Part shown: positions 39,964 to 60,570 of the stretch, in pieces
Layout of the letters: each line of letters starts with the position of its first letter
Position numbering within the stretch: the stretch's first letter is position 1
NCBI GenBank assembly: GCA_022826385.1
Contig: JAJDUZ010000066.1
Span: 1-64,000 of the forward strand
Length of the DNA: 64,000 nt
Source of the DNA: Silicimonas sp.
Lineage (GTDB): Bacteria > Pseudomonadota > Alphaproteobacteria > Rhodobacterales > Rhodobacteraceae
Direction: 5' to 3'
The notes under the pieces: generated by a model
What the model was told of the DNA's origin: nothing
What the model saw: the letters and a program-made list of their open reading frames with translations, nothing else
Databases searched by the model: none
Position numbers and translations under genes: made by a program

Positions 39964-41010
39964 ATGGGTCTCTTTATTCTCAGGCGCGTCGGCGTGATGC
40001 TTCTCACCGCGCTCTGCCTGACATTCATCGTCTTCTTCCTGACCAACCTCTATCCCAACCTCGAGAAGCTCGCCAAAACGCAGGGCAACATGCGGATGAC
40101 CGACGAGCAGGTCGACAGCTGGCTCTCGGAACGCGGGTATCTTGACCCGCTGCCGGTGAAGTACGGTCGATGGCTGGGCGTCGTTCCCGGCTGGACCTTC
40201 GAAGACCCCGACGACGGTAAGGTGCGCGGGCGCTGTATCGAGCCCGGCATGGACCCGGCCGAGGCCCCCCGCTATTGCGGTATCCTGCAGGGCGATTGGG
40301 GCTTTTCGACCGTTTTCAAGGATGAAGTCGGCACCGTCACCGCAAACCGTCTGGCGCTGACCGGCAAGCTGATGTTCTGGGTGATGGTGCTGATGGTGCC
40401 CTCGGCCCTTTTGATCGGTGTGCTCGCTGGCATGCGCGAAGGCTCGAAGCTGGATCGATCGCTATCGACATTCTCGATCGCCTCGACCGCGACACCGGAA
40501 TACGTCTCGGGCGTGATCTTTATCACCCTTCTCGCCTCGTCCTCGGGCGTCAAATGGTTCAAGGGCACGGCAACAAGTGCCGCGGACAATGCAACGTTCG
40601 AGAACTTCTTCCTGCCCGTCCTTACCATCGCGCTTTACGGCGTCGGCTATATCGCCCGCATGACACGGGCTTCGATGACCGAGGTGATGACGGCCCAATA
40701 TATTCGCACCGCCCGCCTGAAGGGGGTGAGCTTCCGCAACATCGTCCTGAAACACGCGCTGAGAAACGCGCTGATCGCGCCCTTCACGGTGATCATGCTG
40801 CAGTTCCCGTGGCTGCTGAATGGCGTGGTGATCGTCGAGACGCTCTTCAACTACAAGGGCTTCGGCTGGACGCTGGTGCAGGCGGCAGGCAACAACGATA
40901 TCGAGCTTCTGCTCGCGTGCTCGGTCGCCGCTGTCTTCGTCGTGCTGGTGACGCAGCTCATATCCGACATCGGATATGTCTTCTTGAACCCCCGGATCCG
41001 GATCGCGTGA
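39964..41010 (+). CDS. ABC transporter permease (DppB-like)
   Basis: MGLFILRRVGVMLLTALCLTFIVFFLTNL; YIARMTRASMTEVMTAQYIRTARLKGVSFRNIVLKHALRNALI. Confidence 0.9.
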   Translation: MGLFILRRVGVMLLTALCLTFIVFFLTNLYPNLEKLAKTQGNMRMTDEQVDSWLSERGYLDPLPVKYGRWLGVVPGWTFEDPDDGKVRGRCIEPGMDPAEAPRYCGILQGDWGFSTVFKDEVGTVTANRLALTGKLMFWVMVLMVPSALLIGVLAGMREGSKLDRSLSTFSIASTATPEYVSGVIFITLLASSSGVKWFKGTATSAADNATFENFFLPVLTIALYGVGYIARMTRASMTEVMTAQYIRTARLKGVSFRNIVLKHALRNALIAPFTVIMLQFPWLLNGVVIVETLFNYKGFGWTLVQAAGNNDIELLLACSVAAVFVVLVTQLISDIGYVFLNPRIRIA

Positions 41011-42531: not shown

Positions 42532-44616
42532 ATGACCAAAGCTGACTATGACGGCCCGATCCTTGAGATCGAAAATCTCTCGATCAGCTTCTTCACCCGG
42601 CTCCGGGAAATCCCCGCCGTGATGGACTTCTCGTGCACGGTGCAACCGGGCGAGGCGATGGGTCTGGTCGGCGAATCCGGTTGCGGCAAATCCACCGTTG
42701 CCCTCGGCGTCATGCAGGACCTTGGCGTCAACGGCCGCATTGTCGGGGGAACCATCAAGTTCAAGGGCCGCGATCTGAACCAGATGACGCCGGAAGAGTT
42801 GCGCGACATTCGCGGCTCGGAAATCGCGATGATCTATCAGGAGCCGATGGCATCGCTGAACCCCGCCATGCGGATCGGCAAGCAGTTGATGGAAGTGCCG
42901 ATGATCCACGAAGGCGTGGACGAGAAAGAGGCTTATGCCCGCGCCCTTGAAGTCGTGACCGATGTGCGCCTGCCGGACCCCGAACGGATGCTCAACAGCT
43001 ATCCGCACCAGCTTTCGGGCGGTCAACAACAGCGCATCGTCATTGCCATGGCGCTGATGTCGAAACCGTCGCTGCTGATCCTCGACGAACCCACCACCGC
43101 GCTGGACGTGACAGTCGAAGCCGCGGTCGTGGAACTGGTCAAGGACCTCGGCAAGAAATACGGCACCTCGATGCTCTTCATCAGCCACAACCTTGGGCTG
43201 GTGCTGGAAACCTGCGATCGGCTCTGCGTGATGTATTCGGGCGAGGCGGTGGAAACCGGTTCTATCGAGGACGTCTTCGACCACATGCAGCACCCCTATA
43301 CGCAGGCGCTCTTCCGCTCGATCCCGCTGCCGGGGGCAGACAAGAACGCGCGGCCGCTGGTGGCGATCCCCGGCAACTTCCCGTTGCCGCATGAACGCCC
43401 GCCCGGCTGCAATTTCGGACCCCGCTGCGACTATTTCGAAAGCGGGCGCTGTGACGCCAGCGATATCAAGATGGCGCAAGTCCCCGGTAACGACCGGCAC
43501 AGCACACGGTGCCTGAAGTTCGAGGAAATCGACTGGAACGCCCCGATCGTTGCGGCCAGCACGACCGAGAAGACCGAACCGGGCGACGTCGTGCTCAAGA
43601 TGGACGGCCTCAAGAAGTATTACGAGGTCGCGGCCAACGCGCTCTTCGGTGGCGGCAACAAGAAGGTCGTGAAGGCCAACGAAAGCCTGTCTTTCGAGGC
43701 GCGTGAAAGTGAAACCCTTGCGATCGTGGGCGAATCCGGCTGCGGCAAGTCCACCTTTGCCAAGGTGTTGATGGGGCTCGAGACCGCGACCGAAGGGCAA
43801 ATCCTGCTCGACAACCAGTCGATCGAAGATGTGCCGATTGAAGCGCGCGACACCAAGACGGTGTCGAATGTGCAGATGGTGTTCCAGAACCCGTTCGACA
43901 CGCTGAACCCGTCGATGACGGTGGGCAGGCAGATCATCCGGGCGCTGGAGATCTTCGGGATCGGCAATAACGAGGCGGAACGCGAGCAGAAGATGCTTGA
44001 ACTTCTCGACCTTGTGAAACTGCCTCGCGAGTTCGCGACCCGCATGCCGCGACAGCTGTCCGGCGGTCAGAAACAACGTGTCGGGATCGCCCGTGCCTTT
44101 GCGGGCGGTGCCCGAATCGTTGTGGCCGACGAGCCAGTTTCGGCGCTGGATGTGTCCGTGCAGGCGGCGGTGACCGATCTGCTGATGGAGATTCAGCGAA
44201 ACGAGAAGACAACGCTTCTCTTCATCAGCCACGACCTGTCCATCGTGCGCTATCTCAGTGACCGGGTCATGGTCATGTATCTGGGCCACGTGGTCGAGAT
44301 TGGGGATACCGAACAGGTCTTCGCACCGCCCTATCACCCCTATACCGAAGCGCTGCTTTCGGCGGTGCCGATTGCCGATACCAGTATCGAGAAGCAGCAC
44401 ATTGTCCTTGAAGGTGACATTCCTTCGGCGATGAACCCGCCGCCGGGTTGCCCGTTCCAGACACGGTGTCGCTGGAAGGATAAGGTCCCTGGGGGTCTCT
44501 GCGAAAAAGACGTGCCGCCCATGCGCACGATCGAAGGTGGTCACCAGATCAAGTGCCACCTCTCGGAAGAGACGCTGGCCGCGATGGAACCGGTCATCAA
44601 GATCGCTGCCGAATAA
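42532..44616 (+). CDS. ABC transporter ATP-binding protein, two fused ATPase domains (DppD-DppF-like)
   Basis: Two Walker A motifs (GESGCGKSTVALGV; GESGCGKSTFAKVL) and two signature motifs (LSGGQQQR; LSGGQKQR), 694 aa. Confidence 0.93.
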   Translation: MTKADYDGPILEIENLSISFFTRLREIPAVMDFSCTVQPGEAMGLVGESGCGKSTVALGVMQDLGVNGRIVGGTIKFKGRDLNQMTPEELRDIRGSEIAMIYQEPMASLNPAMRIGKQLMEVPMIHEGVDEKEAYARALEVVTDVRLPDPERMLNSYPHQLSGGQQQRIVIAMALMSKPSLLILDEPTTALDVTVEAAVVELVKDLGKKYGTSMLFISHNLGLVLETCDRLCVMYSGEAVETGSIEDVFDHMQHPYTQALFRSIPLPGADKNARPLVAIPGNFPLPHERPPGCNFGPRCDYFESGRCDASDIKMAQVPGNDRHSTRCLKFEEIDWNAPIVAASTTEKTEPGDVVLKMDGLKKYYEVAANALFGGGNKKVVKANESLSFEARESETLAIVGESGCGKSTFAKVLMGLETATEGQILLDNQSIEDVPIEARDTKTVSNVQMVFQNPFDTLNPSMTVGRQIIRALEIFGIGNNEAEREQKMLELLDLVKLPREFATRMPRQLSGGQKQRVGIARAFAGGARIVVADEPVSALDVSVQAAVTDLLMEIQRNEKTTLLFISHDLSIVRYLSDRVMVMYLGHVVEIGDTEQVFAPPYHPYTEALLSAVPIADTSIEKQHIVLEGDIPSAMNPPPGCPFQTRCRWKDKVPGGLCEKDVPPMRTIEGGHQIKCHLSEETLAAMEPVIKIAAE

Positions 44617-44628
44617 CACCGGCGCGGG

Positions 44629-44674
44629 CGATTTCTTGGAAAGAAATCGGTCCAAATTCTTGCTAAGAATTTGG
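44629..44674. repeat. Composite double-hairpin repeat, copy A
   Basis: CGATTTCTT-GGA-AAGAAATCG then GT then CCAAATTCTT-GCT-AAGAATTTGG; perfect 9- and 10-bp arms. Shared first hairpin with 56734-56756 and 59572-59592. Confidence 0.75.
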
Positions 44675-44679
44675 CTTCG

Positions 44680-44856
44680 TCAGAAATCGACCGCGATGCC
44701 CTTGTTTTCCCAGTCGCCGTATCGGACGGGTTCCGGCCCTTCGCGCCCACCCAACTCGGTCGGCATCTCCAGCGCTTTCGCCTTGGCTCGCCGTTCTTCG
44801 GCTTCCGCCAACGCGCGTTTTGCTTCCGGGGTCAGGTCTGGTTTCTTGTCGCTCAT
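44680..44856 (-). CDS. DUF1674 domain-containing protein (SDHAF4-like)
   Basis: MSDKKPDLTPEAKRALAEAEERRAKAKALEMPTELGGREGPEPVRYGDWENKGIAVDF; C-terminal EPxRYGDWExKGxxxDF. Confidence 0.88.
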   Translation of the reverse strand: MSDKKPDLTPEAKRALAEAEERRAKAKALEMPTELGGREGPEPVRYGDWENKGIAVDF

Positions 44857-56324: not shown

Positions 56325-56693
56325 TCATTCAAGCGGGCCGTGCTTGGAAAGACGCGCGTTGCGACGATCTTTCTTGCTGGGGCGGCCTGTTCTCTCGATC
56401 GAGGCTTGGGCGGGACGCTCTTCTTCGGGGGGCGTCAGATCGGTGTAAAGCGTTTGGGCTTCGGGGGCTGGACCGCGCCGTGTTGCCAGAGCTTCGACCC
56501 GGATCACGCGGATGCGGCGGGCTTGCGGGAAGGTCAACGTGACGCCCGTGCGCAGCGCATGCGCGGGTTTCGAAACGCGGGTGCCATCCACGCGAACGTT
56601 GCCACCCGAGACCAGCTTGGTTGCAAGGCTGCGTGTCTTGAAAAACCGCGCATGCCAAAGCCACTGGTCCAGACGTTGGGTTTCGTCGCTCAT
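56325..56693 (-). CDS. RNA-binding S4 domain-containing protein
   Basis: QRLDQWLWHARFFKTRSLATKLVSGGNVRVDGTRVSKPAHALRTGVTLTF. Confidence 0.92.
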   Translation of the reverse strand: MSDETQRLDQWLWHARFFKTRSLATKLVSGGNVRVDGTRVSKPAHALRTGVTLTFPQARRIRVIRVEALATRRGPAPEAQTLYTDLTPPEEERPAQASIERTGRPSKKDRRNARLSKHGPLE

Positions 56694-56710: not shown

Positions 56711-56756
56711 CGGAAACTTTGAAAGTTTCCGGTCCGATTTCTTGCCAAGAAATCGG
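56711..56756. repeat. Composite double-hairpin repeat, copy B
   Basis: CGGAAACTTT-G-AAAGTTTCCG then GT then CCGATTTCTT-GCC-AAGAAATCGG; perfect 10-bp arms. Confidence 0.75.
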
Positions 56757-56765
56757 CGCCCCGCA

Positions 56766-59507
56766 TCAATCCGAGTTCGTCTTCAAACCCATCAGCGCCT
56801 GAGCGAACGGGTTGTCGGGATCGATCTTGTCCTTCTTCTGCGGTCTGGCTTCGAAGCTGCGAGGCTTGTTGCCCCCGTCGCGGCGTGGTTTGCCCTTGCC
56901 CTTCGGCTTGCCGTCGCGTTTGCCCTGCGGCTTGCCTTTGCGCTGCTGGTTTGCACCGCGATTGCCCGCCCATGTAAACGTATAGAACACCTCGATACGA
57001 TCTTCTGGCTCGGCATCGCCTGTTTCGGCTTCGGGTGTCGCAGAGACATCTTCCGGGATCGGGTTCGCGGGTGCGTCCTCTGATTGCGGCTCGGTTTCGG
57101 CAGGCGGCGTTGCCGCTTCGGTAGAGACCGGCTTTTCACGCTCGCCGCGCTCGGCCTTGTAGCCCAGTCCTTCCATCAGGTTGGCGAACTGCTCCAGGGT
57201 CATGCCCGTGATCGAGAGCATGTCCGGGTTGGCTTCGAACCCGCCCCGGCTGTCTTCCGACCGCACGAGATCGGCCAGACGTTCCAGCATATCGATCCGA
57301 ATGGCGCGGTCTCCGGCAGGCTTGTAGCCCGACATCAGGTAAATCTGCGCTTCGATCCCGTTGATATGCGGGATGGTCACCAAGCCGGGCGGCGGGCTTT
57401 CGGGAAACTCGTCGGCGCCATTGGCCAGCGACCAAAGCACCAGACGCAGCCGGGTCGGCGCGGGCTTCAACAGGGCCTGCATGAAAATGGTGAATTGGCC
57501 AAAGCGAATGCCGTGCTTCCGCAGCAGGCCACGCGCATCCTGATCCAGGTTCTTCACGTCTTGCGCCACGTCGCGGCGGTCGATGATCCCCATCGCCTCG
57601 ACCATCCGGAAGCCAAAGCCACGCGCCATGCCGGTCAGGGCCTCGTCCTTCTGGATGTCCAAAAGCGGCTCGAACAGCGAAGCGATCTTGCGGTCAATGA
57701 AGTGCTGCAAGCGGCGTTGCACCTTGTCCGCCACTTCTGTGCCGGCTTCTTCGTCGACAAAAGCAACAGCGCGCGGCTTCATCGGGTCATCGCCCGCGAC
57801 CAGCTTGCCGATGGCATGCTCGCCCCACATGAGGCCGCCCTGTTCGGTAAAGTCCATCTCCGTGTCCGGCGCGTTATAGAACCGGTCGGCGCGCAGGTGG
57901 AATTCCGGTTGCAGTGCCGCCGTTGCGGCCGCTTTCAGCGTCTTGGCTTCATCGCCGGTGGCGCTGGCATCCTGATGGAACCGGAACCCCTCCAGACGGC
58001 CGACGAATTGTCCTTCGACCGTAACTTCACCATTCTCGTTCACTTCGGCCACAAGAGCCTCCTTTTGCTTCAACCGCCGAAGCAGAACACTGGTCCGCCG
58101 GTCGACAAATCTTTGGGTCAGAGCCTCGTGGAGCGCATCTGACAGGCGGTCTTCTACCGCGCGCGTCTCGTCCCGCCAATGGTCTTCGTCACGCGTCCAC
58201 CCTTTCCGTTGTGCCACATAGGTCCATGTGCGCACAAAGGCGAGCCGTTTCGACAGCGTATCGATATCGCCATCGGTGCGGTCGATGCGCTTGATCTGAC
58301 GGGCCAGCCAGTCTTCCGGGACTTCACTGTGCTCGTGCAGGAAGCCGAAAATCGCGGTCAGCAAGCTGGCGTGTTCCTGGTGGCTGATGCCGCGAAAGTC
58401 GGGAATGCGGCACACATCCCATAACAAACGCACCGACGCACCATCACTGGCGCGGGCGCGTGTTTCGGCGTCCTCGCCCAGCGTTTTCAGCGCAATCAGG
58501 TCGTCCGCCTCGCGGGCACGCACCACCTGTTCCAGTGTTGGTGTGGCTTCAAGCGAGTGGATCAGGCGATCGATGCTGCCGAATTCCAGATCGGAGTTGC
58601 GCCATTGCAGCTTTTTCAGGGGCGTGAAGCTGTGCGAGGTGATCGCCTCGACCACGCGGTCATCCAGCGGCGGGGCTTCGCCGGTGACACCGAAGGTCCC
58701 ATCGCGCTGAAACCGCCCCGCACGCCCGGCGATCTGGGCCAGTTCATTCGGCTGAAGATCGCGCATGCGGCGGCCGTCGAACTTCCGGAGCCCGGAAAAC
58801 GCGACATGGTTGATTTCAAGGTTCAGCCCCATCCCGATCGCGTCCGTTGCGACCAGATAGTCGACATCGCCGTTCTGATACATGTCGACCTGCGCATTGC
58901 GGGTGCGTGGGCTGAGCGCGCCCATCACCACCGCGGCTCCGCCCTTCTGGCGGCGAAGAAGCTCGGCCACGGCATAGACGTTGTCGACCGAGAAGCCGAC
59001 GATTGCGGCGCGTGGGGTCATCCGACTGATCTTCTTCGAGCCGGAGTAGCTGAGGGTCGAGAACCTCTCTCGGCGCTGGAATTGCGCACCGGGGACAAGT
59101 GCGTTGATAACACCACGCATGGTGTCAGAGCCCATGAAGATGGTTTCGTGCAATCCGCGCGCGTGCAGCAGGCGTTCGGTAAAGACATGCCCGCGCTCGG
59201 GGTCGGCACAAAGCTGGATCTCGTCAACGGCGAGGAAGTCCACACCCATGCCTTCGGGCATCGCCTCGGTCGTGCAGACCCAGTATTGCGTTCGGGGTGG
59301 GACAATACGCTCTTCCCCGGTCACAAGGGCCACGACAGAAGGGCCGCGTACGGCGACGATGCGGTCATAGACCTCGCGCGCCAGCAATCGCAGCGGCAGG
59401 CCGATGATCCCGGTCCGGTGCCCCAGCATCCGTTCGATGGCGTAATGTGTCTTGCCGGTATTGGTCGGTCCGAGGACCGCCGTCACACGGCCTTGTGTCT
59501 GGGACAT
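56766..59507 (-). CDS. Helicase-related protein (Suv3-like DExH RNA helicase)
   Basis: VTAVLGPTNTGKTHYAIERMLGHRTGIIGLPLRLLAREVYD; VDEIQLCADPERGHVFTERLL; DAIGMGLNLEINHVAFSGLRKFDG; IAGRAGR. Confidence 0.92.
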   Translation of the reverse strand: MSQTQGRVTAVLGPTNTGKTHYAIERMLGHRTGIIGLPLRLLAREVYDRIVAVRGPSVVALVTGEERIVPPRTQYWVCTTEAMPEGMGVDFLAVDEIQLCADPERGHVFTERLLHARGLHETIFMGSDTMRGVINALVPGAQFQRRERFSTLSYSGSKKISRMTPRAAIVGFSVDNVYAVAELLRRQKGGAAVVMGALSPRTRNAQVDMYQNGDVDYLVATDAIGMGLNLEINHVAFSGLRKFDGRRMRDLQPNELAQIAGRAGRFQRDGTFGVTGEAPPLDDRVVEAITSHSFTPLKKLQWRNSDLEFGSIDRLIHSLEATPTLEQVVRAREADDLIALKTLGEDAETRARASDGASVRLLWDVCRIPDFRGISHQEHASLLTAIFGFLHEHSEVPEDWLARQIKRIDRTDGDIDTLSKRLAFVRTWTYVAQRKGWTRDEDHWRDETRAVEDRLSDALHEALTQRFVDRRTSVLLRRLKQKEALVAEVNENGEVTVEGQFVGRLEGFRFHQDASATGDEAKTLKAAATAALQPEFHLRADRFYNAPDTEMDFTEQGGLMWGEHAIGKLVAGDDPMKPRAVAFVDEEAGTEVADKVQRRLQHFIDRKIASLFEPLLDIQKDEALTGMARGFGFRMVEAMGIIDRRDVAQDVKNLDQDARGLLRKHGIRFGQFTIFMQALLKPAPTRLRLVLWSLANGADEFPESPPPGLVTIPHINGIEAQIYLMSGYKPAGDRAIRIDMLERLADLVRSEDSRGGFEANPDMLSITGMTLEQFANLMEGLGYKAERGEREKPVSTEAATPPAETEPQSEDAPANPIPEDVSATPEAETGDAEPEDRIEVFYTFTWAGNRGANQQRKGKPQGKRDGKPKGKGKPRRDGGNKPRSFEARPQKKDKIDPDNPFAQALMGLKTNSD

Positions 59508-59571: not shown

Positions 59572-59616
59572 CGATTTCTTGCAAAGAAATCGGAACGGAA
59601 AATGGTCATTTTCCGT
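59572..59616. repeat. Composite double-hairpin repeat, copy C
   Basis: CGATTTCTT-GCA-AAGAAATCG then GA then ACGGAAAATG-GT-CATTTTCCGT; perfect arms. Confidence 0.75.
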
Positions 59617-59643
59617 CCCCCTCCAGATCGCTAGGGTCGCAGC

Positions 59644-60570
59644 ATGACCCAAGACCGTCCTGTCCTTGGCATCCTTCTGATGCTTGGCTTCTGCATTGCC
59701 GCGCCAATGGGCGATGCATTGGCCAAGCTTTTGGGCGAGACGATGGACGTGGCCCAGCTTGTGGCGATCCGAATGGGGTTGCAGGTGCTGCTTCTGGCGC
59801 CAATCGTGGTGTTCGCCGCCATCCCGTTGGCCATGTCGCGCCGAGACATCGGTCTGTCAGCCGTCCGGGCGTTTCTTCACATATTGGGGATCGGCATGAT
59901 GTTCCTGTCGCTGCGGTACTTGCCGCTGGCGGATGCCGTGGCAATCGCCTTCGTGATGCCGTTTATCATGCTGATCCTTGGTCACTATGTGCTGGGGGAG
60001 GAGGTTGGACGCCGCCGCATCCTGGCCTGTTGCGTGGGCTTCATCGGCACCTGTCTGGTCATGCAGCCCAGCTTTGCCGAGGTGGGCTGGCCAGCCTTGC
60101 TGCCCCTAGGTGTTGCCCTCGATTTCGCGCTCTTCATGCTGGTGACACGCCAATTGGCGCGCTCGGTTGATCCGATAGCCCTGCAAATGGTCTCGGGCTT
60201 GTTCGCCTGCTTGATCGTGCTGCCTTTGCTGCCCCTGCTGGCAGGCGTGCCCGGCTTTGGTGTGATCTGGCCAGACACTATCGGTTGGGGGCTGGCGATC
60301 CTGATGGGAGCGCTGGGAACGATCGCGCATCTCTTGATGACATGGGCGCTGCGGTTCGCGCCTTCGGCGACTTTGGCGCCGATGCAATACCTGGAAATCC
60401 CGATGGCCGCCTTGCTGGGATGGTTGATTTTCAAGGAATTTCCCAATGGGCTTGCATTCGTCGGGATCTGTGTGACGATTGCCGCCGGACTTTACATCAT
60501 CCTGCGCGAACGACAGGTCAGCCGGTCAGCGCCTGCAGCACCGTCGGAAGTGCCTCCGCCGGCAGTATGA
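59644..60570 (+). CDS. DMT (EamA) family transporter
   Basis: About 10 TM; APMGDALAKLLGETMDVAQLVAIRMGLQVLLLAP; APMQYLEIPMAALLGWLIFKEFPNGLAFVGICVTIAAGLYII. Confidence 0.9.
   Translation: MTQDRPVLGILLMLGFCIAAPMGDALAKLLGETMDVAQLVAIRMGLQVLLLAPIVVFAAIPLAMSRRDIGLSAVRAFLHILGIGMMFLSLRYLPLADAVAIAFVMPFIMLILGHYVLGEEVGRRRILACCVGFIGTCLVMQPSFAEVGWPALLPLGVALDFALFMLVTRQLARSVDPIALQMVSGLFACLIVLPLLPLLAGVPGFGVIWPDTIGWGLAILMGALGTIAHLLMTWALRFAPSATLAPMQYLEIPMAALLGWLIFKEFPNGLAFVGICVTIAAGLYIILRERQVSRSAPAAPSEVPPPAV

Follow-up and report, generated by a model that had tools for sequence, protein, structure and literature searches.

Paired palindromic repeats of marine Rhodobacteraceae and their linkage to a gene for a small orphan protein

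The double hairpins described here are, in our assessment, somewhat probably miniature mobile DNA repeats of marine Rhodobacteraceae with a cognate partner, an orphan protein of about 80 aa. We conclude that the system is REPIN-like but has a cognate protein of unrelated kind, which may drive the spread of the repeats. The stretch of DNA analysed (the window) comprised positions 1–64,000 of contig C41, in a 3.38 Mb assembly that was 84% complete. The most informative part of the system, the cognate gene, is invisible from the window, whose edge is 38 kb short of it.

Structure and variation of the double-hairpin repeat

The window contained three perfect copies with 2 nt between the hairpins, as the initial annotation had described. 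Copy 1 (44629–44674, + strand) lay between convergent genes, with a stop codon 12 nt before it, and was flanked by genes for an ABC transporter of 694 aa with two ATP-binding domains of the oligopeptide/dipeptide type (42532–44616, + strand) and a DUF1674 protein of 58 aa (44680–44856, - strand). Its conserved hairpin, CGATTTCTT-GGA-AAGAAATCG (44629–44649), was followed by the linker GT and the variable hairpin CCAAATTCTT-GCT-AAGAATTTGG (44652–44674). Copy 2 (56711–56756, - strand) was inserted between the stop codon of the gene for a Suv3-like helicase of 913 aa (56766–59507, - strand), which separates copies 2 and 3, and the start of the downstream gene for an S4-domain protein of 122 aa (56325–56693, - strand). 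Here the variable hairpin, CGGAAACTT-TGA-AAGTTTCCG (56711–56731), came first, followed by the linker GT and the conserved hairpin CCGATTTCTT-GCC-AAGAAATCGG (56734–56756). Copy 3 (59572–59619, + strand) lay between divergent genes, the helicase gene and the adjoining gene for an EamA-type transporter of 308 aa (59644–60570, + strand), and consisted of CGATTTCTT-GCA-AAGAAATCG (59572–59592), the linker GA and ACGGAAAATG-GT-CATTTTCCGT (59595–59616), with pairing that reached 59619.

A search of the window for GATTTCTTN3AAGAAATC with up to three mismatches returned three sites, all of them exact, against a mean of 0.09 in shuffled sequences. When folded as ssDNA, each copy formed exactly the two hairpins (z = -5.4 to -6.4). 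No Rfam family matched the window copies at gathering scores, and copy 2 had no match up to E = 1. Elsewhere in the window, Rfam gave a strong match (134.9 bits) to the Ruegeria cis52 sRNA at 40584–40765 on the - strand, antisense to a gene of 348 aa at 39964–41010. This match and the relatives identified by name assign the genome to the Rhodobacteraceae/Roseobacter group. In most copies of the repeat the hairpin junction often read CGGWCCG (e.g., window 56729–56735 and 44649–44653), the sequence recognised by RsrII, a Rhodobacter restriction enzyme; the agreement may be a coincidence.

Genome-wide, the conserved hairpin occurred in 17 exact copies, compared to none for the reversed control pattern, and a second hairpin abutted it in all 17. 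These copies aligned without gaps in one fixed geometry (stem of 9–10, loop of 3, stem, one base, stem of 9–10, loop of 3, stem), with the hairpin centres spaced 24 bp apart and a unit of about 46 bp. The commonest frame was CCG-N4-CTT-N3-AAG-N'4-CGG, one base, and the same frame again, which gave palindromes of 21–23 bp. With these 17 copies as its basis, a covariance model identified 58 distinct candidate sites, a lower bound with 150 of 1131 first-look candidates scored; 55 of them had at least 14 of 18 pairs and 38 were perfect. Because the model was trained on GATTTCTT copies, other repeat types were under-counted. The expectation of many copies beyond the window therefore held, with about 55 sites as a minimum, and the partner hairpins (CGGAAACTT, CGAAATCTT, CGGAAAATG and others) likewise recurred elsewhere in the genome. 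The first hairpin varied too, with the forms CGATTTCTT, CGCTTTCTT, CGTTTTCTT, CGAATTCTT and CGATTTCCG among others. Unbiased scans with the fixed geometry, run on a 505-kb sample of genome stretches, gave a bimodal result in which six sites scored 17–18 and the rest fell at background; copies in this genome are therefore either kept perfect or young, despite their differing sequences.

The density of elements was uneven between contigs, with one model match (304352) on C13 (347 kb) and eight AT-rich elements on C41 (205 kb). A second, GC-rich double-hairpin family was also observed, with members such as TCGCCGGCTGACGCCGGCGA-tcca-CCGGGGGGCGCTGCCCCCCGG and frequently with ACCCCC(G)GGATATTT after the hairpins, at C41:88936, 92402 and 167399 and at C13:23379, 212122, 264587 and 299609. 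In congeners (L215, L236, L221 and L249) it occupied the same spot behind a gene as the AT-rich element does here. The GGCGC and GCGCC flanks were considered as the two sides of an enclosing third stem, an idea that was rejected, since their complementarity (3.2) did not exceed that of shuffled partners (3.5).

In a public genome scan, the exact first hairpin was found, among the matches listed, almost only in Rhodobacteraceae-type genomes, including the genera Roseovarius, Sulfitobacter, Primorskyibacter, Cognatishimia, Frigidibacter, Shimia, Ruegeria and others. A partner hairpin of at least 7 bp was present at 67 of 81 foreign sites, compared to 0.75% of random positions. The congener G003 held several copies with mismatches, and genome G133 held BIME-like tandem arrays of the unit with a 67-bp period (about four array copies in L408 at 1502–1814, and further double-double sites in L392 and L396). 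Plasmids yielded one repeat match. A macrodomain-type position code was set aside, because in G007 and G133, which are complete genomes, the repeats looked dispersed save for a 1-Mb gap in G007. Typical Rhodobacteraceae double hairpins were also present in a record that carries an actinobacterial name, Enemella evansiae TN21-6 (L328 and L356), so that either the record was probably mislabelled or the culture was probably not what it was taken for.

Both stems covary. In the second helix of the 17 exact copies, seven pairs were changed on both sides, and 26 cells were double changes compared to 7.9 after shuffling. Among 30 distinct sequences picked for variety and for at least six of nine second-hairpin pairs, 99.3% of cells paired, a value inflated because the rows were so picked; the double changes, 46 against 10.7 when shuffled, stay informative. 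The covariation that the initial annotation had attributed to the second hairpin was thus present, although not restricted to it. It took the covariation to imply selection on structure; for an RNA-type structure this does not follow, because the changes were almost purely Watson-Crick and G-T was not commoner than A-C among the non-Watson-Crick cells (10 vs. 9 in the foreign set, 5 vs. 5 in the set from this genome, and 1 vs. 4 in gene-linked copies). Such covariation does not imply selection on an RNA fold, which should favour wobble; symmetry at the DNA level is the better reading, and copying from arm to arm fits as well. From these small counts, the stem symmetry seems to be maintained in DNA, through a cruciform, dyad recognition or arm-to-arm copying.

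Insertion into gene junctions

The double-hairpin elements are insertions. When 18 flanking genes were traced in four congeners, the genes often abutted where this genome has 45–80 bp. At L082, convergent stop codons were 0–2 nt apart in congeners and 47 nt apart here, the result of a clean insertion of 45–46 bp that duplicated no more than 1 bp. The gap at L028 was -4 to 13 nt in congeners and 82 nt here, that at L038 was -4 in congeners and 51 here, and the site of copy 1 measured 13 or 38 nt in congeners, devoid of a double hairpin, and 63 nt here. No target duplication could be defined. In 28 other genera the helicase stop codon was not followed by a double hairpin, and the helicase and S4 genes mostly abutted. 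Decayed hairpin remnants were found in congeners at L092, L048 and L070 and, in two congeners, at the site of copy 2, and the model matched 0, 1, 15 and 1 times in the four congeners.

Some sites were old and common to several genera, rather than recent insertions. The element behind the orphan gene was common to about 20 genera and had acquired compensated changes, with CGATTTCTT...AAGAAATCG here and CGCTTTCTT...AAGAAAGCG in G108. Among intergenic sites, 47 of 54 touched the 3' end of a gene, the median distance to the stop codon being 4 nt, and at about ten sites the stop codon fell inside the first hairpin. The share of convergent sites among these 3'-end sites was 36%, compared to 31% expected if any stop codon were a target, and the elements had no orientation bias between tandem genes.

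An orphan gene with a linked repeat

As the initial annotation had remarked of its three copies, no transposase was adjacent, and none was evident more widely. Clustering of 956 proteins neighbouring 225 element loci revealed no recurrent transposase-like gene; the same clustering exposed a small orphan gene at whose end many genera carry a double hairpin. The Y1 transposase domain (PF01797) of a RAYT/TnpA-REP-like gene, for which the initial annotation had suggested a search, was found neither in this genome nor in 14 of 15 genomes searched, including complete genomes with many copies, while the search gave matches in five control genomes. On these searches, RAYT/IS200-type mobilisation was rejected.

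With genes called by a simple codon model, the orphan gene lies at C41:102097–102333 (+ strand) and encodes 79 aa, and a second paralog (b), about 50% identical, is at C21:16771–16971. The protein was unmatched in Pfam, NCBIfam, PHROGs and PADLOC, and the family alignment yielded weak, scattered matches only. Invariant residues of the family were F18, G26, R30, R31, D35, G41, E48, R52, G53, N59 and C67. The AlphaFold model (pLDDT 84.5, pTM 0.72) predicted the order helix-(helix)-strand-helix-helix-strand-strand, which is compatible with a winged helix; Foldseek returned nothing significant for this model, the best E being 0.23 in the PDB and 0.036 among viral models. Three plasmid homologs were found, a phage search gave no match, and distant homologs on actinobacterial plasmids (34–36% identity) were without the repeat. 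The homolog at NZ_CP124617.1 9654–9863 (L461) is annotated as an aspartate aminotransferase and one of those actinobacterial plasmid homologs, at NZ_CP083440.1 43455–43658 (L463), as an N-(5'-phosphoribosyl)anthranilate isomerase, both implausible because the proteins are of about 70 aa.

Linkage of gene and repeat is near-obligate, and the pairing is well supported. A double hairpin of 17–18 out of 18 pairs lay close downstream of the gene in 27 of 30 homologs from different genera, and upstream in none of the 30; two of the three remaining homologs held remnants. Control genes reached 16 of 18 pairs downstream in 26 of 849 cases (3%). Hairpin pairs were also present downstream of all five homologs from the same genus, more weakly in G004. 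Loci outside these unbiased 30 and five homologs were often chosen for holding the repeat. Paralog b had two double hairpins, with the tip CCG-N3-CGG instead of CTT-N3-AAG.

The gene also co-occurs with the dispersed repeats, being present in 24 of 26 element-bearing genomes compared to 35 of 95 others (Fisher P = 2.7e-7, in a test that ignores kinship). Sampling took a single genome from each genus. The two element-bearing exceptions, G088 and G104, had one repeat match each, and the congener G002, in which no homolog was detected, held one decaying repeat. Genome by genome, dispersed copies resembled the gene-linked repeat of their own genome, with a similarity of 0.289 compared to 0.111 ± 0.024 (0 of 20,000 permutations), as exemplified by CTGTTTTCTT in G007 and the TG-ACG-CA tip in G133. 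When the dispersed copies of the present genome were compared with the repeats of both paralogs, they split 41:12 between them, with four ties. Distances between proteins and between their linked repeats were correlated (r = 0.46; Mantel test, 0 of 5000), a correlation that shared descent alone could produce. Two genomes with both gene and linked repeat (G062 and G134) were searched over 200 kb each, and neither held matching copies away from the gene, indicating that the linked repeat does not always spread.

Spread of the repeats and comparison with known systems

Under the mobile-repeat explanation, the protein would recognise the paired hairpins in DNA, as a cruciform or as single-stranded hairpins, and its activity, or that of host replication and repair enzymes, would copy the unit of about 46 bp to new sites through a putative mode of strand cutting and joining. 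New copies would be perfect palindromes, retained mostly just behind stop codons, and old ones would decay where the activity was lost. At 79 aa the protein is small for a complete transposase, which counts against it as the mover. More tentatively, the repeats may represent a new class of prokaryotic mobile palindrome, in which the unit is copied by or with a non-HUH protein and the arms are copied from each other in each round.

Several other explanations were weighed. If the protein served as a regulator that binds DNA, or as a nucleoid factor, the double palindromes would be its sites, kept by selection for symmetric binding and spread by rare recombination or replication errors, not by the protein. 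Dyad symmetry with Watson-Crick-only covariation agrees with this, as does the winged-helix-like order predicted for the protein, and the linked copy could be autoregulatory; however, the sites lie behind stop codons and not at promoters, several arose as clean insertions of the bare unit, their number shifts strongly within the genus, and the orphan protein did not significantly match the structure of any DNA-binding protein, which makes such a role unlikely. It is more improbable still that another transposase moves the repeats, the small gene being either a passenger or one of the host's own, with an ancestral copy attached by chance. The linkage in 27 of 30 homologs, despite very different hairpin sequences, and the cognate match within genomes are unexpected for a passive host gene, and the surroundings of the 225 element loci held no recurrent candidate. 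Such a transposase would be compatible with an assembly 84% complete and a genome-wide transposase search that covered Y1 only, and with a mobility that is plain while catalysis by the protein remains putative.

Two further proposals concern what the hairpins do and how they stay perfect. Tandem-hairpin terminators or 3' mRNA stabilisers, working in RNA at gene ends, would suit the short distance behind stop codons, and clusters of two hairpins near stop codons have been reported to work as intrinsic terminators even where a U-tract is lacking (PMC8355165). Against this, most copies had no U-tract after the hairpins in either orientation, and the terminator scan of the window copies gave one weak match, on the - strand of copy 3, which used the T-rich arm of the other hairpin. 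Copies lay inside operons (gcvH-gcvP and helicase-S4), seven were between divergent genes, a conventional terminator followed further downstream of the element behind dksA, congeners mostly lacked the element at the same genes, and G-T wobble was not favoured over A-C. Given the missing U-tracts and the location inside operons, most elements are not terminators; termination may occur at some copies, without explaining the family, for which this is the least probable of the explanations weighed. Template switching in replication (quasi-palindrome correction), which would keep the arms identical without selection, concerns maintenance only and is compatible with the mobile-repeat explanation. 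It would explain perfect but varied stems; the unbiased sample, whose scores were bimodal and which held no half-decayed copies, points the same way, as do the paired changes with few intermediates. Copies in congeners nevertheless gathered uncorrected mismatches, so that correction of the arms is not automatic, and we regard this contribution as rather doubtful, if less so than the binding-site role.

Understood as mobile repeats with a cognate protein, the double hairpins invite comparison with REP-type palindromes, which are among the commonest bacterial repeats and are linked to RAYT transposases. No description of this double-palindrome family was found in the open-access literature, and an earlier one elsewhere is possible. 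Tandem-hairpin terminators share with the unit a pair of neighbouring hairpins a short way behind a stop codon (PMC8355165), but the unit is an inserted repeat, also present in operons and divergent regions, with complementarity of the DNA type. It resembles MITEs as a short non-coding unit with inverted symmetry and many insertion sites, yet at 46 bp it is very short, and no parental insertion sequence with matching ends was found nearby. CGTC-tagged palindromic repeats of Alphaproteobacteria likewise have stems of 8–9 bp and often occur as dimers (PMC3733652). They differ in their loop of 4–5 nt, compared to 3 here, and in the terminal CGTC/TGTC/CCTC motif and the CCA tail at the hairpin foot, both absent from the present repeats, whose flank consensus is GGCGC...GCGCC.

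The REP/BIME-type mosaic proposed in the initial annotation was apt in so far as this is a dispersed family with BIME-like arrays in one relative. As with REPINs and REP-BIMEs, the units are short paired palindromes, extragenic and near stop codons, with very different copy numbers between close relatives and tandem arrays in one of them. REP doublets (REPINs) have been described as the replicative unit (PMC3116915), and here too the paired palindromes move together, with both present in 17/17 copies in this genome and 67/81 elsewhere and with clean insertion of the double unit. The assignment failed at membership, since a family without a Y1 transposase and without a GTAG or CGTC head is not part of REP/RAYT: a GT(A/G)G head was absent from the foot of the palindromes, where the flanks carry GGCGC/GCGCC at most, and the palindromes are perfect instead of imperfect, with a fixed 24-bp spacing of centres. 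RAYT genes have been described as always flanked by two inverted REPs with which they coevolve, and their presence as correlated with REP abundance (PMC2817692). The orphan gene carries its repeat on the 3' side only, and its protein of about 80 aa is unrelated to Y1/HUH transposases and unmatched in the family libraries searched. In kind, if only in part, this recalls the REPIN/RAYT system, with a gene to which a co-occurring and seemingly coevolving repeat is attached. If the mobile-repeat explanation is true, a REP-like way of life evolved more than once, here with an unrelated tiny protein; a protein family misnamed in public annotation would gain a role, and the pair would make a minimal model in which to test how palindromes are recognised and copied and what keeps them perfect.
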